This document shows positions 5,410 to 62,965 of a DNA stretch of 64,000 bases, in pieces; within the stretch, counting starts at the first letter, position 1; each line of letters opens with the position of its first letter. The DNA is from Wuchereria bancrofti (Eukaryota > Nematoda > Chromadorea > Rhabditida > Onchocercidae). Location of the stretch: contig SSBO01000016.1 in NCBI GenBank assembly GCA_005281725.1, positions 37,768-101,767 of the forward strand, in the 5' to 3' direction. The notes under the pieces were generated by a model. The model searched no databases and was not told the origin of the DNA. It was given only the letters and a program-made list of their open reading frames with translations. A program made the position numbers and the translations under genes.

Positions 5410-5410
5410 N
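5410..5410. other. Single N (assembly join)
   Basis: A lone N separates copy 1 of the repeated sequence from the outer end of a long palindrome. A single N is a placeholder rather than a sized gap. Confidence 0.9.
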
Positions 5411-6967
5411 CTAAAAAATATACTAAATCAATTAATTTGTTCATTTGATATAAACTAGCTACAATTAAAAAAATGATTGAGTTTTCGTCTATCTTAACTT
5501 AGCTAATTAAATATATCGAATTGAATATTTAAGTAATAATTTATTAGATTAAATACATTAATTAAATATGTCAAATATATCTAATTAAACATAACTAATT
5601 ATATCAAATGTATCGGACTAAACGCAACGAATTAAGTATATTAAATATATCAAATTAATTAAAAATGAAATTGAAAGTTTGTTGAACATATAAATCTATT
5701 TATTACATCATAACTCATTTAAATTGTAAATTTTTAGCTTCAGTGATTGTAAAAAAAGAATGTAATGAATGGAATAATTAAATTATAAATATAATAATAA
5801 TTAAATAATTAAATTATAAAATATCACATAATTAAATTATAAGTATTAATATATCATAAAATTAATTATTGAGTATGTTGTCAATTAATTTTATTATGCG
5901 TAGCAGATACAGGAAAAGGAAGGTAATCAAATTTGAAAAATTTGCCGTTCCGGCACATGGTCAAACAAGTTTACCCGTTTCCGACTGACATATACGGCAT
6001 GCTCTTTTTCCGTGTTAGATGAATCAGATACGGTTTTCGGTGAGCTTTAATTGTTTGCATTATTTCATATGAAAATTTTTAGCTTAATAGAAAAAACAAA
6101 AATGAATTTTCATTCAATGCAAAATTTTTTTTCTTTTTTTGAAAAAATTTGGTATTAATTCCGGAAAGTAGAAATTTTTCTTCTGTAGCATATTTGTTGA
6201 TAATTTCTACTTTCCGGAATTAATACCAAATTTTTTCAAAAAAAGAAAAAAAATTTTGCATTGAATGAAAATTCATTTTTGTTTTTTCTATTAAGCTAAA
6301 AATTTTCATATGAAATAATGCAAACAATTAAAGCTCACCGAAAACCGTATCTGATTCATCTAACACGGAAAAAGAGCATGCCGTATATGTCAGTCGGAAA
6401 CGGGTAAACTTGTTTGACCATGTGCCGGAACGGCAAATTTTTCAAATTTGATTACCTTCCTTTTCCTGTATCTGCTACGCATAATAAAATTAATTGACAA
6501 CATACTCAATAATTAATTTTATGATATATTAATACTTATAATTTAATTATGTGATATTTTATAATTTAATTATTTAATTATTATTATATTTATAATTTAA
6601 TTATTCCATTCATTACATTCTTTTTTTACAATCACTGAAGCTAAAAATTTACAATTTAAATGAGTTATGATGTAATAAATAGATTTATATGTTCAACAAA
6701 CTTTCAATTTCATTTTTAATTAATTTGATATATTTAATATACTTAATTCGTTGCGTTTAGTCCGATACATTTGATATAATTAGTTATGTTTAATTAGATA
6801 TATTTGACATATTTAATTAATGTATTTAATCTAATAAATTATTACTTAAATATTCAATTCGATATATTTAATTAGCTAAGTTAAGATAGACGAAAACTCA
6901 ATCATTTTTTTAATTGTAGCTAGTTTATATCAAATGAACAAATTAATTGATTTAGTATATTTTTTAG
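5411..6967. repeat. Long perfect inverted repeat (fold-back), 766-bp arms and 25-nt loop
   Basis: Position 5411 pairs with 6967 and the pairing continues to 6176/6202. The arms are 5411-6176 and 6202-6967, with 6177-6201 as loop. The left arm starts directly after the N. The loop plus the inner left arm is the reverse complement of 4932 onward, so the left arm is simply the same locus read backwards. A fold-back (chimeric) contig end is the likely cause; a genuine hairpin or palindrome is the alternative. Confidence 0.85.
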
Positions 6968-7402
6968 ATCTTAATTAGTGTCTCTCTTTTTTTTTCATGC
7001 ATTTTATAATTTATGACCTTAAAAAAATATAAACGTGTAAAACGTATAAAACTTAGAAGGTAAAACGTATAAAATATAAAAAAACTTGAAACGATTATTA
7101 ATTTCATCATATAAATCATTAAACATCCCATTCTATTTAATTTAATTAATGATAATTTTGCTTATGAGTTTTGCTTAAAAATAATAATTGTTGCATTAAA
7201 AAAAATTTTCTTCAATCTGTCTAATCAAATAATTAATAAATTATTATTTAATTGATTCAAACATATTTTTTTAATAATAATTTATATTATTATTTATTAT
7301 AACTCATTTTTATTTTCAATTGTAACAAAAATTTTTTATTTAAAAGAAAACAAAAAACAAACAGAAAGAAAGTAAGCGAAAAAAAGAAGTGCTGATTGTT
7401 AG

Positions 7403-7543
7403 ATGGGCGATATTCACAAGCATTGCTTAAATGAATGGTTACTTCGATTAAACAATAATGATCGATGTGAAATTTGCAAAGAAAAATATTTGAAATCAGT
7501 AAATATCTTACAACCAATGTGGAAATGGCAAAATTTGAAATGA
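7403..7543 (+). CDS. RING-CH (MARCH-type) E3 ubiquitin ligase, exon with second half of the finger
   Basis: After ATTGTTAG the frame reads MGDIHKHCLNEWLL..., then NDRCEICKEKYLKS. This is the second half of a RING-CH (C4HC3) zinc finger: H-x2-C (HKHC), a 13-residue spacer containing the conserved Trp, then C-x2-C (CEIC). Family members are usually membrane-anchored E3 ligases that pass ubiquitin from an E2 to membrane proteins. The exon either ends at 7498 before GTAAATATC (phase 0) or runs to a TGA at 7541-7543. The first half (C-x2-C...C-x-C-x-G) should lie on the preceding exon and is not visible between 3.2 and 7.4 kb, where the assembly is broken. Transmembrane exons would be expected downstream; 9980-10151 is a candidate. 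Confidence 0.65.
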   Translation: MGDIHKHCLNEWLLRLNNNDRCEICKEKYLKSVNILQPMWKWQNLK

Positions 7544-9979
7544 CAAATTGAATGACGGTTAGATCTTTGATCATTTTAATTCTTTTTTTTCCTTTAAACT
7601 TTAGAAATTAAAATAACGATTAGATTTTCTATCATTTTAATCGTTTTTATCTTTAATCTTCAGATAGAAACAAATGACAAAATATTTTCCTAAATTTTTC
7701 CCGTGCTCAAATTTATCACAAATTTTACTTATAATTTAATTAGAGATATCCTCTGCTAAACTTCGAATTAAGAGAAAAAAAAAATTTTTTAAAAAATGGA
7801 AAAACAAACAAATATAAAAAACAATCGAATTGAAATATTTACATATAAACATATAATAATATTAAAAACATAATAAACATAATAATACTACCTTTTTGCA
7901 TTTGCTTTGTGACGTCAAAGATTTGATTAATTAACTTTTGAAATAAAAAATTTATTTAACTAACTTTTGAAATTAGAAATTTTTTTCAATTGTAATTCCC
8001 ATGAATACGATTTTTTTTTAACTTTTGACAGAATCTAAAGTTTTGCAAAAATCTTCTAATTGTTTTGCAAAGTGAATTAGAATTAGATATTAAATTATTC
8101 AATCAGAAATTATGAAAATTTTTTAACTGGTAACAATTGAAACAAATAAATTTTTAATGATTTATCAAAACTGCCATCGATAATAGCAGTTAATGACTAA
8201 TGACACCAGTTAATATTACTAATTAATGATACTGACTTTGTAATTAATTAATCAACTATTAAAATTACTTTGATATTTTGTCAGTAGAAAATGCAAAAAG
8301 CAAAAAGATGAAATATTCATACTTCAATATCTCTTTCAACTAATTCCGATATACAGGTGAGTTTGAGGAAATTCAATCAAATTTTCCAGTCTTACATATA
8401 AATTAGAATGTTCTTAAGCGTAAATTTAAGATGCTTGAGAAATTTGAAGCTCTCAGATCCTTTCTAATTGTTGCAAAAATTGGTTGGACTAAACTATTAG
8501 AATTGTTTAATGATAATTGGCTTAATTTTAGCTTAACACATTGCAAAAAAAAAAAAAATTTCTTTCTTTTTTTTGCAAAATTTTTTTCAGCTTTTCATTA
8601 TTTTTCTTTTAAAAATGAATTTAAAAAAAATGCTATTTTCATTTCTTATCAAGTTTGAAAAATTCAAAAACATAGCAACCTTTTAGATTTCATCTAGATG
8701 TGTGAGCTTTTTTATACATTTAAAATTATAATGCATTCATACTTTAAAAAAATGTTCAAAGCTGCAATTTACCATAATTGTTCAGTTGTTTGCAATAAAA
8801 TTTTATTAAATAAAATCAGTTCAAAAAAAGTTTTTTTTTCTTGTAACTTTAAATAGCAAAAAGAATGGAATGAAAGTTAAATGAAAAATATTTGTGCTAA
8901 CAAAGTTGTTAAATGTAAAATTTCTAGCCAAAATATATAAGTTTACAAGCTAAGAATTATGAATAAAATATCAGAAAAAGATTATCCATAGGCAAAAAAT
9001 CATTTTTTTTAATCATGTTTATTAGTACAATGAAATATTAGAGTATAAAATAATGAATAGAAATTGAAAAATGAGCGGAATAATTAATGAAATTGTTGAT
9101 GTATTAGAAATTAGGAAAAGCATAAAATTTAGAAAAAGTTTTTATTAGAAAAATTCATCAGAAAAAGCATAGAATTTCTAAATTTACTTTTTTTTTCTAA
9201 TGAATATTACACGAAAAAATCAGTTTTAATTTTACAGCACATAAATAATATTCTTAAGTGATTCATTTCAACAAAAAATTGATTAGTTTGGAAATTTTAT
9301 TGATGAATCAATAAATACAATTGATTTGGTAGGGTTGATAATAAGTAATTAAATATTTTAAAAAACTTGCTAATAAGTTTAGCATTAATAAGATAGCAAT
9401 TAGATATTATTAATATATCTAAAAGAATACAATATCTGATTTTAGAATATTGTTAAATCATCATCGGTAATTTGCTTATCAATGTGTTTATGATATATGA
9501 TAACACTTACTATTGAAAGAAAATTTTTTGATCGAATTTTCATAGCTGGTTTATCACCACGTTCATCTAATATAGCACGTATACGTAAGTGTATATTTAC
9601 AGTACTAGAATTATTTAATAATAAGTTAAAGTGATGCTTTTAGCATTTTATTCTAATCAAACGTTCTCCTTTTTTTTTTTTTAATTAACAAAATGATATA
9701 CTTATCATTTTAATTGCACAGAACATTTATAATTTATGTTAAATTTTTATAAAATTTTATTTCAATACTTCATTTTATCTTATTTCTCAACATGACAGAT
9801 TAACAATGAAATTATGGAATAAATTATTAGTATCATTTAGCTCCTAAATAAATAAATGAATATATCAATAATTGAAAAGTAGCAAAAACCCAATTATAGA
9901 ATAAAATTATAGTACCATTTTGCTCCTAAATAAATACATAAATATATCAATAATTAAGAAGTAGCAGAAATTTTTTTAG
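7544..9979. other. AT-rich intron or spacer; imperfect tandem duplication at 9819-9970
   Basis: No firmly supported exon. Near 9546-9584 there is an exon-like stretch (TTTTCATAG before it, reading GLSPRSSNIARI, then GTAAGTG). Its end phase does not fit the next candidate exon at 9980, so I leave it unassigned. At about 9819-9970 a unit of roughly 76 bp containing GCTCCTAAATAAATA and ATATATCAATAATT occurs twice in tandem with scattered differences. Confidence 0.4.
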
Positions 9980-10151
9980 AATCCATTTTATTAATAATTT
10001 TAACATTATTTTATTTGTAACACTTTTAATTATATCAACACCAATTGGTGGTTTGACAAATATTGCTATGCGTATTTGGCATTATGTTAATAAACAACGC
10101 GCTATACGCTTTATTGATTTTGATATTAATAAAAAAGCAATTAAATATTGA
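9980..10151 (+). CDS. Candidate terminal exon with a membrane segment
   Basis: After TTTTTTTAG the frame reads through a hydrophobic segment (NIILFVTLLIISTPIGG), then NIAMRIWHYVNKQRAIRF, and stops at TGA 10149-10151; 56 residues remain. Exon entry is phase 2. A hydrophobic span followed by a W/H/Y/R-rich cytosolic tail would suit the C-terminal membrane part of a MARCH-type ligase, and strand and order agree with the RING-CH exon at 7403. The link is inferred only; similarity to a specific family is not established. Confidence 0.35.
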
Positions 10152-14824: not shown

Positions 14825-14832
14825 ATTAATGT

Positions 14833-14834
14833 CT
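14833..14834 (-). promoter_or_regulatory. Probable spliced-leader acceptor of transaldolase
   Basis: On the minus strand a run of T ends in TTTTTCAG, and the ATG follows 8 nt later with no other exon visible upstream. This is the arrangement expected of an SL trans-splice site in a nematode. A cis-spliced non-coding exon further up is possible. Confidence 0.55.
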
Positions 14835-17217
14835 GAAAAACAAAAAAAGATTGTCAAAATATTAATTATTTCCAAATGTAATAAAATTTAAAACGATAAC
14901 CAATTATTAAAATTTTGATTTTTTCCTAAGTATAATATTTTTAAAATTCTAAGAAAATTTCTCTTCTTAAGTTTAATGTTTTATTTTTAGTATAAGAGAA
15001 CTTACAAAATCTACCAAATACTTATCACATGTGTTGATGAAATTATTATAAATCTTTAAAGCAATTAAAATTTTTTGCATAAAAATTTGCATTAAAAAAT
15101 TATCAAAATTTAGGTTATTTGAAAGTTCATGATAAATATGGAATAGATTTCATAAATTTAGATTAAATTTTGTGCTCCCAAAAGAAAAGGAAGTAAATAT
15201 TTCAAGAAGTTTTTAGTGACTATAAATTTAAATTTTGATTTTTTTTTCAAATTTCTTTAATTTCTTATACCAAAAGAAAAAACACACAATTATTTTCTCC
15301 TTGGTAGTTCATTTTAACACTACGTCGCTTCTTTTTCTGATATAAAAAATCAGAGAAGTAAATCAAAATTTTAAAGAAATGATAACTGAAGAAACTGAGA
15401 AAACGAAAAATTGAAACTGCAATCGTTACTACTTTTCTAATATTTCTTTTCCTTCTTTTCCTTCATATTTCTATATATTTAATTATATTTTTTAGGTTCC
15501 GTGTCAAAGACTCGCAAGAACAAAAATAGTAGAATAGCAGAGAGAATATATGAAGAGGATAAAAATAGCACAGAGAAACAAATGGTACGATGAAATGGTA
15601 TGAAAAAGGAATAGAAGGAAAGAATCGGAAAAACAAAACCGGAAATTAAATTTGCTTCGGGTTTCGTCAAAATTTTGCGAACAACAAATAAATTAGTAAG
15701 CTAATGATGATGCAGCAGAACTCCTAGCCTTAATTTTCTGGCTTTTTTTTTGCAACTCGATCCAGTACCTGACACATTTGCAATGAACGGAAAGGGTGGG
15801 TAGGTTATCGGTTTACCGGTTACCGGTGCTTTTATTAGGTTTTATGGGTTTTTATCATTAAGGAATGTTTCTTTTTAATCTTTCATACACTCTTTTATCA
15901 TCAAATGTTTATCATTCTATTATGTCTGCCCATTTTGTTAACTGAAATCAATTTAGCCTCATCAAAATATTTTATCATTTTTTAACGATGATTTTTGCCA
16001 AATTAGCATCAATTTTTAATCTTTACTTTCACATATTTGCTCGTATTATTGACGTTTTATCGATTTTTAAGTGAAAAATTTAATTTAAGCCAACTGTTTA
16101 AGCTAATGTTTAGTGCGTGTAATAGCAGATGAAAGGAATGATACGATATTATTCTTGCTGAACAATTCTTATCATTCTTAGATATGTATAAAATGCAAAT
16201 TTAATAAGTAAGAAATTCGTATTACTAAATGAAAAAATGATTTTAGATACAAAAAACGAGAGAGAGAAAGAAAAAGAAAAAGGAACAAAAAAAGACTAAA
16301 ATAAGTCAAAAGAGAGAGAGAGAGGGACAGAGAGAATAAAGCTAAGCTAAATAAGTTTTTAATTAAATAAATAAAATATTTCATGAATAGATGAAATAGT
16401 TTGAAATATTTCTCGAAAAAATGAAGTATTTCGAAATGTTTCTCGAAATAAAGCCATTCAAGGTTTAAAGAAATGTTAAATGATGAAGAAATTTTGTACC
16501 AGTAGGGCAGGTATAATTACTAAAACTTTCTCGTCTCATCGTTTTTCTTTCTCTTCTTTTCAATGATAATTTCTCTTATCAGTTGACTGATTGATTTTGT
16601 GTTGACACTAATAAAAGTTTGATCTTTGATCACAGTTTTATTTTAAATGACTGAAGCAAAAAAAAGGAAAGACCGGTTTTTCTTTCTAAGGCATATTTAT
16701 AAAATATTTAAGTAAAATTGGGTCTTTGTCGATACTTTATCATTTCAAATATCACTATTTCTAATGCCTTAAATTGCTGTTATTCATTTTAATATTTTAT
16801 GATAATTCTCGGTTGCTGTATAATTTTCTTCATTACCTTTATTTGTAAAATGCCAAATTCACATTTAATTTATCATTATCACTTCCTTCAATCTATATCT
16901 CTTACTACATCGTTTAATTCAAGTCGTCAATTAAATATTGGAGAAGCTAAAATATTTGTTTCATTTTTTGTATTTCCATTACGTTATATATTCAAAAAAA
17001 GAAAAAAAAAACAAAAAAGCTGAAGAACTGTAAGATTGTGGGATAAATTCTATCAATTTTTCGTTTTCAATCAATTAATTTCTTATCTTCATTTTCTGCA
17101 TTCCATAGAGTAATAAATTTAAACTAATTGCTTCTCTTATTGATGAAGAAATTAAGATTAGTATTGTAAAATTCATCAAATTAATATTTAAGTCTTTGAA
17201 TATGCTTTCTTTTTTGT
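14835..17217. other. Divergent promoter region between transaldolase and SPT3
   Basis: About 2.4 kb separate two head-to-head genes. Notable contents are a GC-richer patch near 15700-15835 containing the self-complementary ACCGGTTACCGGT, and an AG dinucleotide run at 16311-16325 within a purine-rich stretch from 16257. No exon was recognised; short open frames here lack splice and family support. Confidence 0.5.
16257..16335. repeat. Purine-rich (AG)n microsatellite
   Basis: GAGAGAGAAAGAAAAAG is followed by AAAAG repeats and an uninterrupted (AG)n run at 16311-16325, then GGGACAGAGAG. It is a simple-sequence tract in the divergent intergenic region. Confidence 0.85.
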
Positions 17218-17219
17218 AG
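17218..17219 (+). promoter_or_regulatory. Probable spliced-leader acceptor of SPT3
   Basis: GCTTTCTTTTTTGTAG precedes the first exon. The exon has stops in frame before the first suitable ATG (17285), so the acceptor probably receives a spliced leader rather than an upstream coding exon. Confidence 0.5.
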
Positions 17220-17284
17220 CTGCCTGATCAATCAATTGGTTGATTGGTTTGAATGGATGGACGAATGATTTACTAATTCATTTA

Positions 17285-20057: not shown

Positions 20058-20063
20058 AATAAA
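20058..20063 (+). terminator. Poly(A) signal AATAAA for SPT3
   Basis: AATAAA lies 200 nt after the SPT3 stop codon on the same strand, the first canonical hexamer in a suitable position. Confidence 0.4.
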
Positions 20064-44493: not shown

Positions 44494-47400
44494 AAACCAT
44501 CAGTTATGAGAAAAACGAGCTCAAAAATGTGTAACGTCGTGTAAATTTACGACATAACAAACATGAGATTCAAATGGACTTTGTAAGCCTGTAAAAAAAT
44601 CTGTGACTTGATCTGAACTCTCCAGGTAAAAATTATTTTATTAAAGAATTAGATGAAAAATATGTTTCAGAATTTGAATGCTTTTGCTGCTCAAAGTTGA
44701 TTTAATAATTGCAAAAGAGTAAAATCTAAAACTAGCTAAATATCTTGCCAAAATATCATATATGCTTAAAGTTTGAAATAAAATATCTACGAGAATGATA
44801 CGAAATTTAGAATTCTATCAAAAAATTTAGAAACAGTGAAATAACAAAAATTACTTGTCAGAAAATTTTCTCAATTTCAAAATTATACCACAAAAATAGA
44901 ATACTGATCAGATCCAGTGCGTTTATCGGTTATTCATATGCATTAGAAATATCTTAATAATGCTTTAATTTGATCAGTCCATGAATTAGATTTAGAAATT
45001 AATTTCATCAATCTATGAATCAGATTCGCAAAAATTCAATCCTCAAATCCGTCATGTACTACCATAATCCACACATCAAGAAATTTTACATTACACTCAG
45101 TGCAACTAATTCCACGAATGGCTAATTAACCGGAAATACCACAGCAGACAGAAACTCGACCTATGACCCCTACAGTAGAGACCATTCCCTAGCCACAAGA
45201 CACCACCAACTAACCGTATCACCTCTCGTATATTCAACCAAATACTATCGTTACATGAACATGTCTCAAATATAGCAGCACTTTTCGATAGCATATGTCA
45301 CTCATTTGAATGTCTTACGGTAATTTCATGTTTTGTATTATTACGCCTACACGTTTGAATTGAATTATCGATATACATTCATAATTAAATGTCAGAATTG
45401 AGTTAATCGGGATGTATTTATGCCTAAATATTTGAATTGAATTAATCGGAATGTATTTACACTCACACGCCCAGATTGAATTAATCGGGATTTGAAATGA
45501 ATTAAACGGAATATTTAAACTCACACGTTCGAACTGAATTACATGGAATATATTTATAATTACTGAGAAAAACACTATTGTAGGTTTTAAGTGCTATTAG
45601 CTATTTGACCAGCGAAAGAGATGAAAATTCATGATTAAGAAATCGCAGCTTGTTCAGCAAATTATCAATTATCTATTTTGCTTCTATTTTGTTTTTCAAA
45701 TAATCAATATAATAGCATAGTAATGAGAGAGATATAATTAAAATAATGAATGGACTTAACTTGAGGAGTAATAAATAACGATGACAAAACATGCACACAT
45801 GTCACAATGCTAGTGTCAGTGGTTGCATTTGCTAATAGCACATAGTTTGCTGCAAATAAAGCAAAATGTAAATTTTGCAGTCCATTTAAAATGGTTTCTT
45901 CGAGAGTATACGTGAATGACTTGTATTCGTGGAATTTTAATTGATTATTATTTGATAACAGAGTTAGTTATCATTTTGAATTTCTTGTATTCATGTCATA
46001 TATTCAAAATGAAAATTAAGGCAACATGCTGAAAGATATCTGCTAATTAAAGTAGCAATTTATAATCATAAATAAGCAAGTATCAATGATTTATGCAGTA
46101 TCATTAGTTTTCCAACAAGTTCAATTGTAAAATTTCACATTTATAACATTAGGAGATTTTTTTTTGACTAAATTTTGAAATTTAACTAATTTTTGTATTT
46201 ATGAATTATTTTATATTACTGTAAAATAGAATAACAACCTAACATCATTCTTCCAGTTAAAGTCTATTTCTACAAACATGTTGATATTTGATGAGCTAAT
46301 CATTATAATTGACTGATCATTTCAGGAAATACATCTGTTATTAACTTTTTTTTAAATGAGCAATTTAAAACATGTATAAAAATTTTAATCTGTTAATGAA
46401 ACTATGAAATAAAATCAGATTTTAACACAGAATTTTAACACTGAGTCAGCATCACGGTATAATGAATTAATTCGAAATACTCTAACGCTTTGAAATATTT
46501 TGAAATAATTAAAAATACTTCATATATTTCTATCAATTTTTCTTCTATTTAACAAAAAAGAAAATAAAAAACTTGAATTTTCTTTATTTTTTTATGTAAT
46601 ATTAAATTAATTGTTCTTTGTTTCAAAAAAGAAAGAATTTGTCTTTTTTTTCATTTTATATTACATATGGGAAAAAAGAAAAGAAAAAAGGAAAAAAAAA
46701 ACAACAATTAAATGAAGCAAACTCATCGGAAAATTGATAATATTTAAAAGCATATCGATGATTAATTAACATTCCCATGAGTGTAATTAAAGGAAATCAA
46801 ATTGTTCCGTTATATTGAACATTTTAAAAATAACTTTCAGAAAGAACTTTTTTTCACTTCATTTTTATTATTTAATCTTAATCTAAGGAGATAGGACTAA
46901 AATTAATTTTTAATTTGTTAATTACTTCATTAGTTTTGTTATACATTTGTTTTCTTTTTCTATCAGAGATTACATAAATAATTCAATTAAGCTAGGCTTA
47001 TTTATTTTATCGGTTAAGTTAATTTCATTTCTTTCTTCTTTTACCTCATCATTCGTATGTATCATTTATTTGCACATTGTTATTTTTTAATTATAGTATC
47101 ATGTATTATTTGGCTGAATTTAGCAAATTACATTTAATCAAAAATAATACATTCATTAGAAAAACAATATTTACTGAATGATCAACGTTATGTGATCGTT
47201 TCTTGACGTGAAAAGTCCTTTTTTTCTTCTATTATTGTACAATAAATGGCAAAGCATTTATAAATGAATAAAATATCTTCTTCATTACAAAGAATATCAT
47301 AATATTATTGTCAAATTTAACATCAACAAAAATAAGAGTAATAAAAATAGTATGCAAACAAATCAAATGGTAGGCGGTATACGAATACATTAAAAAAAAG

Positions 47401-47705
47401 CATATCAATGTATTAAATATAATTTAAGCGTTTATTTATTTATGTATTTTGACTGTAAGATATAAGAACAATACGTATATGCATATTATTGACATATAAA
47501 CATGAAAATAATGCATAAAAAAGTGTAAAATTATAATTTTTACTAGAAGAACGAATTTTAGGAAATTATAATTAAAGAATCAAATGCTTTAAAACTGGGC
47601 ATGTAGTGAATTAGATGAAGAGATGAATTCAATTTGATTATATTGAATGCAAAAGATTAAGATTAATCAATGATGACAAATTAATTAACAGTGCATTATT
47701 AAAAG
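44494..47705. other. AT-rich spacer upstream of the NADAR gene
   Basis: No exon recognised. It contains a GC-richer patch at about 45050-45300, a plausible promoter flank or unrecognised element with no supported frame, and a degenerate tandem repeat at 45340-45560. The rest is featureless AT-rich sequence. Confidence 0.5.
45340..45560. repeat. Degenerate tandem repeat (unit about 45-50 bp)
   Basis: Variants of ACACGTTTGAATTGAATTA followed by ATCGGAATGTATTTA recur about five times with substitutions and length changes. The repeat keeps a minus-strand frame open (86 codons with recurring IPINSI), which is a repeat effect and not a gene. Confidence 0.8.
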
Positions 47706-48473
47706 TGATGAAAAATTAAAACTTTTAAAAAATCATGTTAATTACTTATGATAAATGAATTTTAACGATTCATATTAATTACTTCAATATTTTTTCAAAA
47801 AAAAACAAACATAAAGAATGGTTAATCTTTAAATTCTAATCTTACTATGAAGTATGCAATATTTCTCGCAATAATGTCACATGAATTAGCATTGCACAAT
47901 GCAACTGATGTTACTTCAGAAAAAAACGATTGCAAAGTGATACCAATTATTAATTATTTTATTGTATACCAAATTTTGAAATGCAAAAAATATTCATAAA
48001 AATGATAGATATACCATTTTATTATAACTATATTCTTCATAAAAATAGAAAATTAGCAAAAATAATTTAGGAATTTAGTCAAATCATATTTAAGGTAAAT
48101 AAGTTCTCTAGATCAATTTCCAAAGATTATGCGTTCACTAATAGTATATTAATTAAACAAATTTTGTTGGAAACTTATTTCAAAATATTTTTAGAATAAC
48201 AGATTTGAATTTCGATGAAGATTAGCGCAATTAATATTAATAAATTAGCATTCTTTTTTCTTAAAACTTCAGATAACAAAGATTTTTATCAGCAAGAATG
48301 TTGGAATTATTAATTTAATTTACAAAGATTTAAAGAAAGACAAAATTATTCCTAATAACATGCAATTTCTCATAGAGATCTAACCCCGCCAAAGAGAATT
48401 ATTTGGGAGAAATTTCAAGAAAAATCCTGAAGGAAAATAATAGTACGAAAAATATTTATATGGTATCATTTAT
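47706..48473. repeat. Exact 768-bp duplication, copy 1
   Basis: Bases 47706-48473 are repeated at 48475-49242 (offset 769) with only an N at 48474 between. No gene is affected. Confidence 0.92.
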
Positions 48474-48474
48474 N
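48474..48474. other. Single N (assembly join)
   Basis: Lone N between two identical 768-bp copies. Confidence 0.95.
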
Positions 48475-49242
48475 TGATGAAAAATTAAAACTTTTAAAAA
48501 ATCATGTTAATTACTTATGATAAATGAATTTTAACGATTCATATTAATTACTTCAATATTTTTTCAAAAAAAAACAAACATAAAGAATGGTTAATCTTTA
48601 AATTCTAATCTTACTATGAAGTATGCAATATTTCTCGCAATAATGTCACATGAATTAGCATTGCACAATGCAACTGATGTTACTTCAGAAAAAAACGATT
48701 GCAAAGTGATACCAATTATTAATTATTTTATTGTATACCAAATTTTGAAATGCAAAAAATATTCATAAAAATGATAGATATACCATTTTATTATAACTAT
48801 ATTCTTCATAAAAATAGAAAATTAGCAAAAATAATTTAGGAATTTAGTCAAATCATATTTAAGGTAAATAAGTTCTCTAGATCAATTTCCAAAGATTATG
48901 CGTTCACTAATAGTATATTAATTAAACAAATTTTGTTGGAAACTTATTTCAAAATATTTTTAGAATAACAGATTTGAATTTCGATGAAGATTAGCGCAAT
49001 TAATATTAATAAATTAGCATTCTTTTTTCTTAAAACTTCAGATAACAAAGATTTTTATCAGCAAGAATGTTGGAATTATTAATTTAATTTACAAAGATTT
49101 AAAGAAAGACAAAATTATTCCTAATAACATGCAATTTCTCATAGAGATCTAACCCCGCCAAAGAGAATTATTTGGGAGAAATTTCAAGAAAAATCCTGAA
49201 GGAAAATAATAGTACGAAAAATATTTATATGGTATCATTTAT
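48475..49242. repeat. Exact 768-bp duplication, copy 2
   Basis: Second copy of 47706-48473, directly abutting the N. Confidence 0.92.
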
Positions 49243-49813
49243 TGCATTGATAATTATTTCATGCAGATAATTATCAATAGTATTTGGTGTCATATCAGTT
49301 TATGACATGAAATTTGCGCTCGTTGCAAAAACTTGGAATGTTTTTTTCTCTTATTATACCAATATCTTCATAGCATACAAAAAAAAATTTTAATATTTCT
49401 TTTTTTTTCTTTTTTTTAGAAAGAGTAACTTCTTTTACTATTTAAATAAAGAATTCTACTAATTTAAATACTTTATTCTTTCAAATTTTTCAAACAAACA
49501 AAAAGGAAAGAAAGAAAGAAAGGAGAAAAGAACGGGACAAAAAGAGTGGAAAAAAATAAAAATATAATAGCATTGTTTGTTCTTTTTATCTTTTTTTTGA
49601 AATGAAAAAAATTGAAACGGAAAAAAAATTAAAAATAATCGCTTATCTGTTAAAACAAACTAAGCAGCTTTTTCTCAATCATCCAATAATTTAAAAAATT
49701 TCAAAAAAATCAATGCAGACAGACAGAACAGAACAGAAAGTTTGCCAAATGATCATTCATTTGGATGTGACTCATTCAGTGTCAATTGTGAAATTTTTAA
49801 AAGTTACTTTCAG
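49243..49813. other. AT-rich spacer
   Basis: Purine- and pyrimidine-rich low-complexity sequence (GAAAGAAAGAAAGG near 49508). Nothing gene-like seen. Confidence 0.5.
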
Positions 49814-50948
49814 AAAGACATTTTATTGAATGTGGTAAAAAAATAAAAAATAAAAATAAAAGGAGAAAAATTTACTTTATGCGTGCATTGCATCATAATA
49901 ATTATTTGCTTTTTGTTTTCATTTTTAATTTGATAAAAAAAACTGATAAACTGATAGAAATAGGTGATTTGAAATAGCTATTATTATTTCAATTATTTCT
50001 ATTTTTTTAACTTAATTTTAATATATTATTTTGAGACTTATTGTATATTATTGTTAAACTTAGTTGTAGATCATTTTTAAACTAGATTTTTTACAAAATT
50101 TTTCTAAAATAGAAATATTAGCATTAATTATCCTAATTCAATATTATTTTCTTATTTCTAATTTTCAGATTTTAATCAGTTCTTTCTTTTTTTCCATCAT
50201 TTTACTTTTGTATGCAACGAATATTATCAGTGAAGCTATTATCAGCAAATAATTATAAATCATTTTTCGCCTTCTCTTTCTGCAATAATTAATTTCATAA
50301 GCATAGTGATATTTTTGCATAATTAAAACTGATAATAATATGCAAAAGATATGAATATTTTGAGAAAATTTTCCTAACAGTTTATTTCCTTTTTTCCTAT
50401 ATAAAATCCCAATAATCAAAATTTGAAATTAAAAAATTAAATCAACTTTTCTTTTTAAGAAAAGGAAACAAAAACTAAGGATATGAACTGAATTTGTATA
50501 TTTAATAAAAAGAAAATTCTCTTTTTCTTTCTCTCTTTCTCTTTTGTTTTTACTTCTTCAATACTGAAGCGCAATTAGTAAGAAGTAAATTACATAAGTG
50601 AAATAAAAAAATAATTGAAAAAATTTGTCCGTTTGAAATATTTTGAAAAACAACAAATAAGAAGAAATATTGCTTACACATAATAAAAAAATTAACTGAG
50701 CAAAGTAAACTTTTCTTTTCTTCTAAATTTTTTTGTCACAAAAAAAAAGTGGAATCGTTAAATATATGAACAGAGAAGTATTTTATCATTCAACGAAAAG
50801 CAGAACAACAAATAGCATATACAAATGAAAGAATTGATAATTTGTAAGCTAAACATCAAAAGCGGCAGTGGTATTAGTGACATTTACACATTTCAACAAG
50901 TAGATATGAAGAGTATAATTAATCTTTAATTTATTATTCTTTCATAAA
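49814..50948. repeat. Exact 1135-bp duplication, copy 1
   Basis: Bases 49814-50948 are repeated at 50950-52084 (offset 1136) around the N at 50949. The 84-codon minus-strand frame present in both copies has no supporting features. Confidence 0.92.
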
Positions 50949-50949
50949 N
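50949..50949. other. Single N (assembly join)
   Basis: Lone N between two identical 1135-bp copies. Confidence 0.95.
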
Positions 50950-52084
50950 AAAGACATTTTATTGAATGTGGTAAAAAAATAAAAAATAAAAATAAAAGGA
51001 GAAAAATTTACTTTATGCGTGCATTGCATCATAATAATTATTTGCTTTTTGTTTTCATTTTTAATTTGATAAAAAAAACTGATAAACTGATAGAAATAGG
51101 TGATTTGAAATAGCTATTATTATTTCAATTATTTCTATTTTTTTAACTTAATTTTAATATATTATTTTGAGACTTATTGTATATTATTGTTAAACTTAGT
51201 TGTAGATCATTTTTAAACTAGATTTTTTACAAAATTTTTCTAAAATAGAAATATTAGCATTAATTATCCTAATTCAATATTATTTTCTTATTTCTAATTT
51301 TCAGATTTTAATCAGTTCTTTCTTTTTTTCCATCATTTTACTTTTGTATGCAACGAATATTATCAGTGAAGCTATTATCAGCAAATAATTATAAATCATT
51401 TTTCGCCTTCTCTTTCTGCAATAATTAATTTCATAAGCATAGTGATATTTTTGCATAATTAAAACTGATAATAATATGCAAAAGATATGAATATTTTGAG
51501 AAAATTTTCCTAACAGTTTATTTCCTTTTTTCCTATATAAAATCCCAATAATCAAAATTTGAAATTAAAAAATTAAATCAACTTTTCTTTTTAAGAAAAG
51601 GAAACAAAAACTAAGGATATGAACTGAATTTGTATATTTAATAAAAAGAAAATTCTCTTTTTCTTTCTCTCTTTCTCTTTTGTTTTTACTTCTTCAATAC
51701 TGAAGCGCAATTAGTAAGAAGTAAATTACATAAGTGAAATAAAAAAATAATTGAAAAAATTTGTCCGTTTGAAATATTTTGAAAAACAACAAATAAGAAG
51801 AAATATTGCTTACACATAATAAAAAAATTAACTGAGCAAAGTAAACTTTTCTTTTCTTCTAAATTTTTTTGTCACAAAAAAAAAGTGGAATCGTTAAATA
51901 TATGAACAGAGAAGTATTTTATCATTCAACGAAAAGCAGAACAACAAATAGCATATACAAATGAAAGAATTGATAATTTGTAAGCTAAACATCAAAAGCG
52001 GCAGTGGTATTAGTGACATTTACACATTTCAACAAGTAGATATGAAGAGTATAATTAATCTTTAATTTATTATTCTTTCATAAA
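50950..52084. repeat. Exact 1135-bp duplication, copy 2
   Basis: Second copy of 49814-50948. Confidence 0.92.
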
Positions 52085-53310
52085 TTTATAATCAAAATTG
52101 TACTCAAAAATTTAATAATCTTCATTTTAATTTTTTTCCATTTTTCCAATCCGTAAGACATATGAAGAAAAGAAAAAGAAAAAGAAAATTTGAGAAATTT
52201 AATTTAGAATTATTTCCAATAAATTATCATTGAAATATAATAATGTGATAAAGATTGAAAATTTTCTTGAACATAAATTTTTGAAAATTTATAAAATGTG
52301 ATTTAGTGAATGGTGGAAAGTCGCCATTGTTATAATTTTTGAAATGATCTAACTTATAAGATTAAATAAAAAAATAAAAAATAAAAAAAATAAAAAAATA
52401 ACAAAAAAAAAATTCAATAAATAAAAAGAAAATAAATGGTATTATGAAGTTGGATATGTTAAAATATACTAAATACACGAAAAAATATTAAAATACACGA
52501 AAAATTCGTGACAGTACTTTATCAGAACCAATTTTAAGTGTTATGAAATAGAACATTAATAAATAGTAGTCGCATAAATTCGTAAAAGTTTTTTCCACTA
52601 ATTTATCATTAAATTTGTCTTTAAGATATAAATGAAGAAAGAAGGATGGTAGTGATAAGAGTTAGATTTAATCATAAGAAATAAATCAAAGGATAAAATA
52701 AAAGAAAAAAGAGAAGTTAATTGGTAAATACAAATAATAAAAAACACATACAAGCATAAAAACAAATAAATAAACAAACAAACAAACAAACGAGAGAGTA
52801 ATAAGTGGAAACTACATGAAAAAATGAAAAAAAAAAACGAAAAAAGAAAAAATTGACAATGATAACGATTAAAATTCAAAATTCACAAAACATTTCATTT
52901 TTCGCATATTTTTCATCGCATATATATGTAATGAATGTGTTGTGCAATGATTATCATTAATATATTCAAAATTTTAGATTTAAATAAAAAGTAAAAAAAC
53001 AAGCACCGTTTGTATAAATGAATAAATGATTGTATCTGCCTATTTTTTGAGGAAAATAATGAAAAAGAAAAATTTGGCTACTCAATCTAGCCAAATGTAA
53101 ATGAGTAAATGATAAATTTTTTTCCATTTATTAATTTTTTAATTCCAATAATTCAAATTCGCTTTTTTTTCTTGAAATTTATCAGATGATATTTGAAAAT
53201 GGATAAATAGTCAAATTTGCAATGATAGAATAACTTTTTCGAAAAATTCCTTAAAAATATTTTATTGTTTATTGCCAAGATTTTATCAGTTATTTTATAG
53301 GTGCGCATCC
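52085..53310. other. AT-rich 3' flank of the proteoglycan gene
   Basis: Low-complexity A-rich sequence (AATAAAAAAATAAAAAATA near 52363, AAACAAACAAACAAACAAAC near 52772). It presumably holds the 3' UTR of the minus-strand gene ending at 53311. No exon recognised. Confidence 0.5.
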
Positions 53311-56300
53311 TTAATGAAGTAATAATGGTACCCAAATAATAATAATAAATGCAGTTAGCACAGATAATGTTGGACAATCGGTAGATCCAACTTCTGGCGG
53401 TTTAGCAATAACAGGCGGCCTGGTTGGTAATTTAGTTTCCAACGATGGTTCTGTAAAATTTATTTTCAAATAAATTCAGAGCATTTTACACATCAATAAT
53501 GTTGCATCTAAAATGTAAGAAAAAATGAAAACTTAATATTTTGTTGTAAAATTTCTTTATGAATTCAAATTTTTATATTTCTAATTAATAATTTAATAGT
53601 AAGTATCAAAATTATAGATGAAGTAAAATTAATGTGTGGTAAGTTAAGGTATTCGTATAAAATAGCATATCGTGGTATGATAAAAAAATTTCTTCCAAAA
53701 TTAACGAAAAACTTTTTTTTTCTTTTAATATTATCCAAAGTAAATTGTTTGTAAGACAATGTAACAAAAAGCAAAAGAAAAAAATTTCAACAAAAAAAAA
53801 ATTTGCTCTAATTTTTTAGATTGTACGTGAGTGGCAGAGAAATAACCATATATTTTGAATAATCAGAAATACGATTTATATTATTCATTCTATTACTATC
53901 ATTCATATCATATCAGCAGATACGATCATCGTCGTTAGGATGATAATTTTGTAGCAATCGAGGAGAAAAAAATATATAACGTAAGAAAAAAAAGTGAATA
54001 AATTACAAATAAATGCAATTGTATTACTAACTGCCTGGTCTGTGTAAAATTTGAATTAAAAATATAGAATATTATATTTGATAATTATCACATAATTAAT
54101 ATTCTGCAGTGTAATTAATAGTTATCATTTAATTAATGTTATATTATTTAATTAAAGTTATTTCATACTATGGCATATGCGAAATAAGGTTATACTCAAC
54201 AGCTATCATATAATTAGTATTATTTTTTGTTGTAGTGCAAATTAAATAGTGGTATAATTAACATTTATAGAAAAATAAATCATAAATATTGCTTGAACTT
54301 AAAATTTTTCTTAATTTACCTAAGTTATCCCTTTTTTTATTCTCTCGTATAAAAGTTAGCATGAAATTTCAATTATATGTCTCATATCATTTTTTTTTCT
54401 GCTGAGAAATAATCACTTTGTATTCGAAAATTTGTTTTAATTTTTGATTCGCAAATCTGATTAGTTAGTCTAATTAATTAATGTTGGTAGCATAAGGGAA
54501 AGTGTCATTGAAATTTACTAAGGTCTGATTTGAATTTCAAAATTGAATATTAGAACTACTGATGAAGTAACTGATAAAGCAAAATATATAACCTTGATAA
54601 GTAGTAGTAGTAATTCGATCGATTAATCTCGTATGCCGGCTATCTTCAGCAGATGTAATAATTGGTGCTATAGCATGTTCCTGATCTTCTTCCGTATCAC
54701 CGGATCCTTCATTTTGACTACCTGAACCTTCACCGCCTAAATCCTCATCATCAGACCATTCTATCATACTATTGCTACTTCCTGATCCTTCTATGTTTTC
54801 CATCACTTCCTGTAATTACAAAAAAAACGCCTCAATTAACTATCATTTCCAATATAAAATGATAATAAAAATGTAACATCTTATTACATAAATGAAACTA
54901 AATAGTTTGAAATGTTATCATATCAAATTTTAAAATAATTTGTTAACACATATTTAAGCAACTAATTACCGTTTAATTAGTTGTTATTAACCTAAAATTT
55001 AACTCCTCAACATTTTCATGTATTATCACTCCATTTTTTTTCAGTTTACAATCTAATTCTTTCTTCCCGAAAAAAATTTATACTTTTGCTTTCGAAGCAC
55101 ACACACACATATATATATATACACTACACTTATCATTCCAGAAACCGGATCCAGAAATTACGTTTCCTATTATTTTTTCTCTCATATCTGTGTTATTTTA
55201 TATTTACATGATAATGTATACTTCTTTTTTTCCTTCGTTTTTTTTTCTTTTTTTTTTAAAAAGATAGAAGCCAATATATTCAAATCAATCGCCGTTTGCT
55301 ATTTTTTTCTTTCTTTTTCAGATGAAAAAATATGAAATGGCTACAAATATGTATAATGCAAATTGAGGATAAATGTAGGAGAAAAAAAAAAGAAAAGGTT
55401 ATGTATTGACAGAAGATATTATGAGGATCAAATAATAATGGTATATATTACCGCAGAGAATTGATAAAAGCGGGACAATAATGATTCATGGTCCATCTAT
55501 GGAATGTTATTAACGTAAAAGCCGAAAAAGTTTTTTCTTTTTTTTCCGTCTCGTTTACGATGCTTTCAAAGTGTATGTACAAAAGATGCTAATATTACAA
55601 ATTTATTTTCAACTATCTTGCTTGATATTTTTTTAAAAAAAGAAAAAAACAGACATGAAAAAATATTTTTTCTTTACAAATTCCTTCTCTTTAACTTTTT
55701 CTTTCTCTCTCCCTCTTTTCCCTCCTTCTTCCTATTCTCATAAACTCTTTCTTTCCTTATCCTTCCTCGTTTCAATAATCCAAATTTTTGATTTTAAAAA
55801 AATACAAAATAAAACTAATCTAATATATTGCATATACCTAATTAAATATATATTCTTAGATACTTGCTTAAAAATAACTAGAATTATTAAGAATTCCAAT
55901 TTGAAGCTTTTTAGTGAAGTAATGGTAACAATTATATTATTTAGGAACGTATAAATGGATAAAACATCCGAAATATCTTTGATGAATTCCGTTTCCTAAT
56001 GCTACAAAATTACTACATTAGAAAATCTTATTCTTTTTGTTTATTCCATACTATCATAATTTAATAACAGAATATTTTCAAAATGACATTGTTTGAATTT
56101 CAGAAAATATCTTCATTTCGATAAAAAGATTTCTAAAAAAACATATCGAAAAAAACCTTTTAAGAAGAAAAGGAGAAATAAGAGAAAATATTTGGTAGAT
56201 TTAAATATTCATAATATTAATAATCATTAATTCCATTATTTATTAGAAACAGACACTAGACACATTTGAAATAAAAATAATTATATAATTAATACAAATT

Positions 56301-59024
56301 ATAATTAATATAATTATATAATTAATCCAAACACTATCAATCATTTTCATATCTTAAATTGTGCAATTTATAATCATACCGTGTGGTATGGTATATTATT
56401 TTATATATTAAGATAATATATTACATCACACTGCACAGTTTGTTGTATCTAACCACATCACTTTGATAGCAATAAATAAAACTTGCATTGAAGAAAATAA
56501 GTTATTAGTTTATCTCAACTTTTCTTTCTTAAATTGCAGTTAAACTATTATTTTTATATTTAAATTGTACAATTTATACTCACACCGTATTAGTTTATCC
56601 CAGCTATTCTTTCTCAAATTTCGGTTAAACTGTTTTAGAAGATCATTACCTTTTTTGATATGATAAAATATTTAGTTAATTCGCTCATTAGTATTTGTTT
56701 ATTCATTAAACCATAATTAGTACTAGTTAGTAACACTTCTACCCAATAATATAAGAAATGGTGTTAGTCATCACCTTTTTTTCTTTAAATTAATTGATTT
56801 TTTATAGCATCCTTTTTCATGATCAGGCTGATTTCGACTGTTTTGATACAAATTCTTCTGTTAATTTGTATATTTTTGTAAATTTGTTTAAATGACCAGT
56901 TTAAACAATCTAAAATTTCTTTTTGATTGAATTTAAGAAAATATGAATTGATAATTTGTAGTAAAACTTAAAAAAAATGTCGAATAAAATCTAAAAGAAA
57001 TACAACAATCCGGAAAATAGGACATTTAGAATCATTTCTCATCATCTAACGATTAATTTTTTCTTAAAATGAAGTGAAAAAAGCCTCAGATTGTTTAAAT
57101 TAATATCAAAAAAGGAACCAATTAATAACAAAACTCACATGATCTAGTTTTAAAAAAATCACATAATGAAATTAACCAACAGTGAATTCAAATTTTGACA
57201 TTTTTTTTAAAAAAAAATGGCTATGAAATATCAGTACTTAATGTTTCTTTAAATTCAAGAAAAAAAGAAGCTTCAGATTACTTAAATTGATCAAAATGAT
57301 TATTTTAAGTACAAGCCAATAGCACTAGCGCTTTTTCCGTTTAATATTTCCTTACAAGTAAAAGTATTTTTGAGTTTTTTGACTTTTTCAAGTAATTGAT
57401 AGCAATTAAAATGTTCAAAGGAAAAAAAACGAAAGAAACCGCTAACAAAACTAAGTTATTCTTTCCAAAAACGTCACGTTTTCGATTGAAATAAGCGAAG
57501 GAACAAAAACTTTTATCGTTTAATTTAAAAAAAAAGAAAGAAAAAAAAAACGAAAAGGAAAGTCATACGATNGTATCTAACCACATCACTTTGATAGCAA
57601 TAAATAAAACTTGCATTGAAGAAAATAAGTTATTAGTTTATCTCAACTTTTCTTTCTTAAATTGCAGTTAAACTATTATTTTTATATTTAAATTGTACAA
57701 TTTATACTCACACCGTATTAGTTTATCCCAGCTATTCTTTCTCAAATTTCGGTTAAACTGTTTTAGAAGATCATTACCTTTTTTGATATGATAAAATATT
57801 TAGTTAATTCGCTCATTAGTATTTGTTTATTCATTAAACCATAATTAGTACTAGTTAGTAACACTTCTACCCAATAATATAAGAAATGGTGTTAGTCATC
57901 ACCTTTTTTTCTTTAAATTAATTGATTTTTTATAGCATCCTTTTTCATGATCAGGCTGATTTCGACTGTTTTGATACAAATTCTTCTGTTAATTTGTATA
58001 TTTTTGTAAATTTGTTTAAATGACCAGTTTAAACAATCTAAAATTTCTTTTTGATTGAATTTAAGAAAATATGAATTGATAATTTGTAGTAAAACTTAAA
58101 AAAAATGTCGAATAAAATCTAAAAGAAATACAACAATCCGGAAAATAGGACATTTAGAATCATTTCTCATCATCTAACGATTAATTTTTTCTTAAAATGA
58201 AGTGAAAAAAGCCTCAGATTGTTTAAATTAATATCAAAAAAGGAACCAATTAATAACAAAACTCACATGATCTAGTTTTAAAAAAATCACATAATGAAAT
58301 TAACCAACAGTGAATTCAAATTTTGACATTTTTTTTAAAAAAAAATGGCTATGAAATATCAGTACTTAATGTTTCTTTAAATTCAAGAAAAAAAGAAGCT
58401 TCAGATTACTTAAATTGATCAAAATGATTATTTTAAGTACAAGCCAATAGCACTAGCGCTTTTTCCGTTTAATATTTCCTTACAAGTAAAAGTATTTTTG
58501 AGTTTTTTGACTTTTTCAAGTAATTGATAGCAATTAAAATGTTCAAAGGAAAAAAAACGAAAGAAACCGCTAACAAAACTAAGTTATTCTTTCCAAAAAC
58601 GTCACGTTTTCGATTGAAATAAGCGAAGGAACAAAAACTTTTATCGTTTAATTTAAAAAAAAAGAAAGAAAAAAAAAACGAAAAGGAAAGTCATACGATT
58701 AAATTAAACAACGATGAATTTAAATATTGCTATTTCTTTTAACTGGAAATTAAAACTGGTTAAAATAAATTGCCAATAAAAATCTATTATTCAAATTCTT
58801 TTCAATAATTTTAAAAAAAAAGGAAAATATGTGGAAAAATTGTAAGCTATATTCCATTGATTTTTTTTTTCTTTTCGCTTTCCTTTTCTATATCTATTTT
58901 AACAATATTTTAATCTATAATTATCTGACCAATGATGAAATGCAAATGTTATATGCAATTTAAATTTATTTTTAACATGTGAACCAGGTCGCATTCGTTC
59001 ATTTCGTCATCATTGCATGTCCAA
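53311..59024 (-). CDS. Proteoglycan core protein, probably glypican, 3' exons
   Basis: Minus-strand exons in phase: 59024-58985 (tentative, 40 nt), 55496-55452, 54809-54593, 53450-53311 with TAA stop. Glypicans are GPI-anchored heparan sulfate proteoglycans that shape Wnt, BMP and Hedgehog signalling at the cell surface. The 54.6-54.8 kb exon has three Ser-Gly clusters in acidic context (IEGSGSS, GGEGSGSQNEGSGD), the classic glycosaminoglycan attachment pattern. The last exon has a Pro-rich stalk (KLPTRPPVIAKPPE), then STDCPTLSV and a hydrophobic end (LTAFIIIIWVPLLLH) with no cytoplasmic tail, as in a GPI-anchor signal; a syndecan would have a cytoplasmic EFYA end. The tentative first exon reads WTCNDDEMNECDL, compatible with the Cys-containing C-lobe of glypicans. 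The 5' part (signal peptide, Cys-rich core) is not found and probably lies beyond the window. A 1127-bp assembly duplication sits in the 55.5-59 kb intron. Confidence 0.68.
55098..55124. repeat. (CA)n(TA)n microsatellite
   Basis: CACACACACACA followed by TATATATATATATA, in an intron of the proteoglycan gene. Confidence 0.9.
55497..56444. other. AT-rich intron sequence, nothing recognised
   Basis: Contains a T/C-rich run at 55676-55760 that keeps a plus-strand frame of 99 codons open. It has no other coding feature and is treated as intron of the minus-strand gene. Confidence 0.5.
56445..57571. repeat. Exact 1127-bp duplication, copy 1
   Basis: Bases 56445-57571 are repeated at 57573-58699 (offset 1128) around the N at 57572. 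Confidence 0.92.
57572..57572. other. Single N (assembly join)
   Basis: Lone N between two identical 1127-bp copies. Confidence 0.95.
57573..58699. repeat. Exact 1127-bp duplication, copy 2
   Basis: Second copy of 56445-57571. Confidence 0.92.
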
Positions 59025-59634
59025 CTATAATCATTATAAAATGTTATCATGTGATATATTATTAGAATGTAATAATGTATAATAATGGAATTAATCATCC
59101 CTTTTTCAATATCAAACTACAATCAATACGAAGAGGAAATATTTGTTCAATATTTTTTATGATAACGATAATCCTATGAATTGTTTATGCATTTATACTT
59201 TCTTGAATGAATGTTTAAAGATCAACTGATTCTGGGATAGAATGTATATAAAGTAATCCGGAAATTAAATCTTCTATGTCATCTTACTTAATTTCGTAAA
59301 GAATTTCATTTCTTATTCCAATCTTTCTTTACTTTCTCATTTCTGTCTTATCTCTTTTTTTGGCATATTGTTAATAAATTTTTATTTGGTAATCATAATG
59401 ATTTCGAGCAAAATCGATTAATCAATCTATAAATCTATCTTTCAGTACTTTATATTTTATATACATGTTAGGTTACTTTATTTATAGTTAGCATAAAGTA
59501 ATAAGTACATATGCATTGTTATCAATATTTTATAAATTGTTTCCTAATCATACAATTCTATTTCTATTATAGTACTTAATGATAATTACAGTATAAGTTG
59601 ATTCGAAATAGGAAAAGATTTAAATTTTAGTGAA
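59025..59634. other. AT-rich sequence, nothing recognised
   Basis: Either further intron of the proteoglycan gene or intergenic. No coding or RNA feature seen. Confidence 0.5.
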
Positions 59635-61299
59635 ATTTTTGTACTATCAAAATAATAAATAAATAATGCATATTGACAAATTATCCTAATTTTTCTTATT
59701 TTCTTTCTTTTTTTTATAAATATTTATCGGTTTTAATTTTTTTCTTTTTATGTAAATCTTAAAACAAACAACGTATAAGTGATAGCACAGAACGAAATGA
59801 ATGAATAAAGTGTAAGGGTAATTTAAAATTTAAATAAAATTGTTTTTAAATTACAAAAAAAATAGCATTTGGTTGTTTTTTTTATTCATTTATTTATTCA
59901 TTTATTCGCATTATCTAACATGTTGAATAAATAATTACACTGTAAAAAAAGGGAAAAAGAAAGAAAGAAACGAATCAGAATGATAATAAAACATTTATGT
60001 AAATATATCATTGAAAAAAGTTTCCAATATCGTTTGGTTGCTTTTTATTATTTCTTCTTCGAATTTTTGGTTTTCACTTTTTTTTCAACTTTTTTGTAAA
60101 ATTTTTAAAACCAACAAAGATATATGTATGTATGAGTGTGTATATATGTGACATCATTTTGTTGTCTTTTGGTTTGTTGAAATAAATGACATTAGAAAAG
60201 GGTTATCTGTCAGACAGATGACACGAATGGAACGAATAGAAAAAAAAATTCCGTTCATTATCGCCGCTTTGATTCTCTCAAAGCTTTAATAATGTCCCGA
60301 GAAAAAGAAAAAAAAAACTGATTGCTCTTTCGATGACATTACAGACTAATCTTAAACAGTACTTTGTTCTTTTCTCTCTATCTCCTTGTTCCTTCTTCTA
60401 ATTCATCTCCATTAAAATAGTATTATTAATTTTTAATAATTATCCTTTTTAAGAAAGGTGACGAATGAAAGAAGTTCATAATGGATGAAAAAAAAATTGA
60501 AAACATTATTAGGAATAGATGAAACGAAAATAATTGATAAACTTTTATCCTTATAAAAATTCTCAAATAGTTGTTTAATCAAATAAATAAGAAATAAAGA
60601 GACGAACTAATTAATTGGTTAATAATTAATCCTTGTAAAAGTTCAGATTGAGATTTAATTAATGAAAAATAGAAAAGGATGGTCTATTTTTTTGAAGAAA
60701 AAAGGATGTTGACTTAATATTCGGTTATCTTTGAATCAAGAAATATGCAGCATTTATGTGATGAATTAATCGAAAATAAAATTTAATGATTTATATGCAT
60801 AAAATTATTTTATTTTTTATTGGTTTAGAATTATTTATCCTAGAAAATTTTACCAAATTTGCCAAATGAGAAATAAATTTTTTCCTCCTTTTTTACTAAG
60901 ATCATCGATGACATTTGTTTTGATGTCAATAAAGACGAAAGTGGAGAAAGGAGCGTGATTAAAAAATAAGAAAAAAACCGGAAACCAATTTATTCGCTTT
61001 TTATTTTTTTTAATAATAATGCTGTTAATAATGTTTTTCTTGATTCCAAACATATATTTCAAGTTGATTTCATATTTTAAATATCTAAATCAGTCCCTCA
61101 ACATTTATTTTACCCCTCCTCAAAAATTATCTTTACAAACAAACAATAACATAGGAAGAATACATGAAAAGTTGGTAATTTAATTTAATTGAACAGGTTT
61201 AAAGAAAAATGTTGGAGTGATTATACACGCGGAAAACAAAAATATTTTATTTGCCAAAAAATCATAAAAAAAATGTTAAGTATGATTAAAAAGAAAAAA
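59635..61299. repeat. Exact 1665-bp duplication, copy 1
   Basis: Bases 59635-61299 are repeated at 61301-62965 (offset 1666) around the N at 61300. It is the longest of the N-flanking duplications. Confidence 0.92.
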
Positions 61300-61300
61300 N
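61300..61300. other. Single N (assembly join)
   Basis: Lone N between two identical 1665-bp copies. Confidence 0.95.
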
Positions 61301-62965
61301 ATTTTTGTACTATCAAAATAATAAATAAATAATGCATATTGACAAATTATCCTAATTTTTCTTATTTTCTTTCTTTTTTTTATAAATATTTATCGGTTTT
61401 AATTTTTTTCTTTTTATGTAAATCTTAAAACAAACAACGTATAAGTGATAGCACAGAACGAAATGAATGAATAAAGTGTAAGGGTAATTTAAAATTTAAA
61501 TAAAATTGTTTTTAAATTACAAAAAAAATAGCATTTGGTTGTTTTTTTTATTCATTTATTTATTCATTTATTCGCATTATCTAACATGTTGAATAAATAA
61601 TTACACTGTAAAAAAAGGGAAAAAGAAAGAAAGAAACGAATCAGAATGATAATAAAACATTTATGTAAATATATCATTGAAAAAAGTTTCCAATATCGTT
61701 TGGTTGCTTTTTATTATTTCTTCTTCGAATTTTTGGTTTTCACTTTTTTTTCAACTTTTTTGTAAAATTTTTAAAACCAACAAAGATATATGTATGTATG
61801 AGTGTGTATATATGTGACATCATTTTGTTGTCTTTTGGTTTGTTGAAATAAATGACATTAGAAAAGGGTTATCTGTCAGACAGATGACACGAATGGAACG
61901 AATAGAAAAAAAAATTCCGTTCATTATCGCCGCTTTGATTCTCTCAAAGCTTTAATAATGTCCCGAGAAAAAGAAAAAAAAAACTGATTGCTCTTTCGAT
62001 GACATTACAGACTAATCTTAAACAGTACTTTGTTCTTTTCTCTCTATCTCCTTGTTCCTTCTTCTAATTCATCTCCATTAAAATAGTATTATTAATTTTT
62101 AATAATTATCCTTTTTAAGAAAGGTGACGAATGAAAGAAGTTCATAATGGATGAAAAAAAAATTGAAAACATTATTAGGAATAGATGAAACGAAAATAAT
62201 TGATAAACTTTTATCCTTATAAAAATTCTCAAATAGTTGTTTAATCAAATAAATAAGAAATAAAGAGACGAACTAATTAATTGGTTAATAATTAATCCTT
62301 GTAAAAGTTCAGATTGAGATTTAATTAATGAAAAATAGAAAAGGATGGTCTATTTTTTTGAAGAAAAAAGGATGTTGACTTAATATTCGGTTATCTTTGA
62401 ATCAAGAAATATGCAGCATTTATGTGATGAATTAATCGAAAATAAAATTTAATGATTTATATGCATAAAATTATTTTATTTTTTATTGGTTTAGAATTAT
62501 TTATCCTAGAAAATTTTACCAAATTTGCCAAATGAGAAATAAATTTTTTCCTCCTTTTTTACTAAGATCATCGATGACATTTGTTTTGATGTCAATAAAG
62601 ACGAAAGTGGAGAAAGGAGCGTGATTAAAAAATAAGAAAAAAACCGGAAACCAATTTATTCGCTTTTTATTTTTTTTAATAATAATGCTGTTAATAATGT
62701 TTTTCTTGATTCCAAACATATATTTCAAGTTGATTTCATATTTTAAATATCTAAATCAGTCCCTCAACATTTATTTTACCCCTCCTCAAAAATTATCTTT
62801 ACAAACAAACAATAACATAGGAAGAATACATGAAAAGTTGGTAATTTAATTTAATTGAACAGGTTTAAAGAAAAATGTTGGAGTGATTATACACGCGGAA
62901 AACAAAAATATTTTATTTGCCAAAAAATCATAAAAAAAATGTTAAGTATGATTAAAAAGAAAAAA
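61301..62965. repeat. Exact 1665-bp duplication, copy 2
   Basis: Second copy of 59635-61299. Confidence 0.92.

Follow-up and report, generated by a model that had tools for sequence, protein, structure and literature searches.

Repeats at single-N joins in a filarial nematode assembly: almost certainly contig overlaps left unmerged

Single-N joins and the copies beside them

The window, that is, the whole stretch of DNA analysed here (64 kb; C16:37768-101767), is part of C16, a 202,767-bp contig in a filarial nematode assembly of 86,486,585 bp (86.5 Mb) and 108 contigs. We searched the window for genes, a search that genes in short exons may have escaped, and found that no ORF reaches 200 aa, that the 10 ORFs scanned, out of 26 stop-to-stop ORFs with 90 aa or more, have no Pfam match, and that there is neither an Rfam match nor a tRNA. 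Some other sequences of the assembly were also noticed. Mitochondrial COX1 insertions exist in nuclear contigs (L005 and L006; C12 and C76), and the COX1 of L005, read in the mitochondrial code, is 98% identical to a cluster named for Brugia timori, the best among the 120 matches listed of 7999, which makes Brugia, or a near relative of it such as Wuchereria, the probable origin of the genome. On C16, an element of about 515 bp (144948-145462, in L018) has about 40 listed copies genome-wide with 90-99% identity, 40 of 174 candidates having been scored, and no Rfam match was found in L018.

The window contains six single-base Ns, located at 5410, 28215, 48474, 50949, 57572 and 61300, which are to the base the six positions given in the original prediction. 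At five of them the end of the left sequence is repeated exactly as the start of the right one. The longest such overlap is 1188 bp at 28215 (left copy 27027-28214, right copy 28216-29403), 768 bp at 48474 (47706-48473 and 48475-49242), 1135 bp at 50949 (49814-50948 and 50950-52084), 1127 bp at 57572 (56445-57571 and 57573-58699) and 1665 bp at 61300 (59635-61299 and 61301-62965), the same five lengths that had been predicted for exact copies around five Ns. All of these copies lie on the forward strand, with the N between them as a strandless join marker, and in the assembled letters the identity is 100% in five of five direct pairs (768-1665 bp). No overlap of this kind exists at 5410, where self-comparison finds the left contig end (4956-5409, forward strand) copied exactly at 6202-6655 (454 bp).

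Positions 200-63799 were scanned for exact repeats that abut and have a minimum length of 50 bp, with a look-back of up to 3 kb. With a one-base separator, five such repeats were found, all five at an N, while the same scan found none without a separator, so abutting repeats are confined to the five direct Ns and are not a general property of the window sequence. The ungapped self-comparison gave nine matches, eight of which (454-1667 bp) each touch one of the six N joins, and the ninth is a match of 57 bp at 84%. Altogether 7134 letters are redundant (5888 at the five direct joins, counting copies and N, and 1246 at 5410), which agrees with the prediction that about 7.1 kb could be removed.

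Since the copies are adjacent and identical, they might be taken for true recent tandem duplications, one of them inverted, each with one unknown base at its junction. This has practically no probability: exactly one N splits every pair, and the scan found no abutting pair free of N. Further evidence against it comes from contigs C8 and C12, described below.

We also read C16 over positions 1-161767 (all but its last 41 kb), which contain 21 N runs, namely 19 single Ns and two long runs (2406 and 3511 bases). No repeat was found at the two long runs. The left end is repeated on the right at 18 of the 19 single-N joins, fold-back and imperfect cases included. Outside the window, 12 of the 13 single-N joins in this range have a repeat, with 93-100% identity. 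In eight of the 13 an exact repeat starts at the N (1573, 1465, 1619, 1194, 1613, 1713, 1696 and at least 1581 bp); the join at C16 156354 has an exact overlap of 1677 bp shifted by 5 bases, those at 128952 and 154676 are 99.5% and 99.9% alike, and that at 132217 is 93% alike with 32 gap positions. No repeat was found at the single N of C16 151429. Similarly, on C9, C76 and C12, i.e. outside C16 and C8, no repeat was found at any of three single Ns, two of which have one flank shorter than 900 bases. Some single Ns thus come without a repeat, and the presence of an N alone does not prove an overlap. Within C16:123953-128952 (L016), three single-N joins in a row have overlapping copies of one end sequence in common, so that a single place may be covered by more than two contigs.

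The three non-identical joins outside the window (99.5%, 99.9% and 93%) would fit a heterotype false duplication, in which a single locus is represented twice at each N, by its two alleles one after the other. This reading is extremely improbable, and we reject it, because the five direct pairs in the window are 100% identical over their whole length and the eight stretches searched between C8 and C16 show 100% identity as well.

Counterparts on contigs C8 and C12

Eight queries from the window or from C16 were searched, six of them at the joins and two further out (C16:2000-3500 and 144767-146267), and each was found on C8, on the minus strand, with 100% identity. C8 covers the queries at 5410 and 61300 as two overlapping pieces, because a join of its own falls there. 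Judged from these eight stretches, which are spread over roughly 2 to 146 kb of C16, the sequence of C16 (2000-146267) seems to have been placed a second time, redundantly, in the assembly, its counterpart being part of C8 (657034-798343, minus strand). This would refine the original reading, in that C16 as a whole, and not its joins alone, appears redundant with C8.

At all six sites C8 crosses the place of the window N with one copy, which was seen in letters for five (5410, 28215, 50949, 57572 and 61300) and by coordinates for one. At 28215, both C8 contigs that meet there carry the single-copy junction of the unit at 28216-29403, while at 50949, 57572 and 61300 the junction is traversed in letters by short C8 pieces. 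For 48474, C8 matches 47200-48473 and then 49400 onward, and the 157 bases between the two matches are what a single copy requires.

C8 has joins of its own near these places, and in window coordinates (left end / right start) they lie at 4587 / 4429 with an overlap of 159 bp, 29627 / 26748 (1691 bp), 50122 / 47667 (1687 bp), 52336 / 49507 (1694 bp), 59030 / 56204 (1699 bp) and 59862 / 59608 (255 bp), of which the overlaps of 159 and 1691 bp were computed from letters and the other four were derived by hand from coordinates. An extra N join of C8 falls at window 7454-7620 (overlap 167 bp), where the window has no N. Both the breakpoints and the overlap lengths on C8 differ from those of the window at all six places. 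Breakpoints that shift between two otherwise identical versions are the behaviour of contig ends and not of duplications; the breakpoints of a genuine tandem duplication would stay where they are, and on this ground tandem duplication is rejected. C8 belongs to the same assembly and is therefore not a fully independent witness. The overlap lengths also cluster around 1.6-1.7 kb (1687-1699 bp in four of the six C8 joins and 1613-1713 bp in seven C16 joins), a pattern that may point to an upper bound imposed during assembly or end extension.

A diverged homologue on C12 bears on two of the joins. The stretch C12:13619700-13622900 (L061; 3201 bp, no N) matches window 47083-52243 with 84-89% identity and crosses the joins 48474 and 50949 in letters, with one copy each of the units that the window repeats at 48475-49242 and 50950-52084 (two of two joins examined). 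With both joins collapsed, this part of the window would be expected to measure 3256 bp, compared with 3201 bp in L061. Being diverged, L061 is a natural sequence in its own right rather than one more placement of these contigs, and its single copies speak against tandem duplication at these two joins, as the single-copy passage of C8 does at every junction. The C12 matches near 57572 (window 56000-57571; C12 13.62-13.64 Mb) have 76-92% identity and are broken and partly inverted, and were not used as evidence; at 28215 and 61300 no C12 match is among those listed.

The homology between the window and C12 may possibly reflect an X-Y relation or an old segmental duplication. C12 has 24,139,319 bp (24.1 Mb) and is the longest among the contigs whose lengths were seen, the others having at most 12.7 Mb; its size is close to the 24.9 Mb that the excerpt of PMC6925183 gives for the longest B. 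malayi scaffold, which is presumably X. On the strength of the 84-89% homologue and the size of C12, the cleaned region could be related to a segment of X as its male-specific, Y-linked version, although we regard this as rather unlikely. B. malayi Y contigs are reported, in a passage of PMC7181701, to be high-copy and hard to assemble, and Y linkage, if true, would explain the fragmentation and the double scaffolding of the region.

The fold-back at 5410

The right contig at 5410 opens with a fold-back of 791 bases (5411-6201, reverse strand), which consists of 766 bases and 25 more read backwards. Its letters result when 4931-4955 and 6202-6967 are put end to end and reverse-complemented: the segment 5411-6176 and the forward arm 6202-6967 are exact reverse complements of each other (766 bp), as are 4931-5409 and 5723-6201 (479 bp). 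After the turn, the contig reads forward from 6202 with the same sequence as from 4956 onward, and the first part of the forward arm, 6202-6655, repeats the left contig end. This is the inverted plus direct arrangement that had been noticed at the sixth N. When the fold-back arm is set aside, an ordinary contig-end overlap of 454 bp remains.

In C8, the base equal to 5409 joins directly onto the equivalent of 6656 and the sequence is then identical for 965 bases up to the next N of C8. A diverged homologue on C55 (79% identity over the query, in pieces of 81-88%) is also collinear through the site, and the inverted arm is absent from both contigs there. Two C55 stretches, 4756-5705 (L057) and 15669-16618 (L058), lie 10.9 kb apart and do not differ in a single letter over the 3950 bases compared, so the C55 homologue counts as one witness. 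As far as their letters tell, this pair is perhaps another false duplication.

For this join alone, a real inverted repeat (palindrome) present on top of an unmerged overlap was considered, as the arms are perfect over 766 bp. It is very improbable and was rejected, since C8 passes from 5409 to 6656 and on through its 965 bases uninverted and the C55 homologue is likewise collinear, with no inversion in either. Fold-back (inverted) chimeras occur in amplified or long-read libraries. The contig at 5410 resembles them in that it opens with its own following 766 bases in reverse complement and skips 25 bases at the turn, and the fold-back is presumably a chimera of reads or library. The original reading is refined at 5410 in that the right contig starts with a fold-back which C8 lacks.

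Unmerged contig ends and known false duplications

In conclusion, the repeats are almost certainly an assembly artefact, in which overlapping neighbour contigs were left unmerged with one N between them and, at 5410, the right contig also starts with a fold-back. The left end equals the right start exactly across five of the six markers, and across the sixth after the 791-base fold-back. Unmerged overlapping contig ends with N as a join marker are also what the original prediction had proposed, and this reading holds well with the single copies found on C8 at six of six joins (48474 by coordinates only) and on C12 at 48474 and 50949.

The joins are best explained by the following course of events. 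The ends of neighbouring contigs cover the same 0.45-1.7 kb of the genome, and the scaffolder ordered these contigs and judged the gap between them to be zero or negative. The overlap was then left unmerged and one N written between the contigs; at 5410, an inverted stretch, presumably chimeric, at the start of the right contig hid the overlap. Both the scaffolding step or program responsible and the cause of the non-merging are here what we infer.

The finding matters as quality control only. About 7.1 kb of the 64-kb window is false duplication, and together with the apparent redundancy of C16 and C8 it would inflate sequence counts, repeat content and copy-number estimates here.

The artefact at the six Ns is of a known and ordinary kind. 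Scaffolders such as SSPACE, LINKS or BESST mark a negative gap by a single n. In the sections concerned of Ko et al. 2022 (PMC9516828), in which read depth and read k-mers are used for classing false duplications, a gap that separates the members of a duplicated pair within a scaffold is named as a sign of false duplication. The joins resemble the homotype false duplication described there: the copies are identical and share a scaffold, separated by a gap, which is one N in six of six cases, and no allele-specific differences appear in the letters of five of five direct pairs. They differ from that description, as far as those sections go, in that the copies here are overlapping ends of neighbouring contigs, the gap is exactly one N, and the classing was done by sequence alone.

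The joins are also similar to unmerged negative gaps in scaffolding, since adjacent contigs overlap within a scaffold here too; overlapping contigs are called negative gaps in passages of PMC8849508 and PMC5368935. A gap closer that extends contig ends, as described in part of PMC2884544, is by analogy a possible source of such overlaps. According to the relevant passages of PMC8849508, LRScaf is prone to artificial duplication of contigs, and every tool discussed there other than SMIS attempts a merge of the contigs where the gap is negative, whereas the overlaps in this window were left unmerged.
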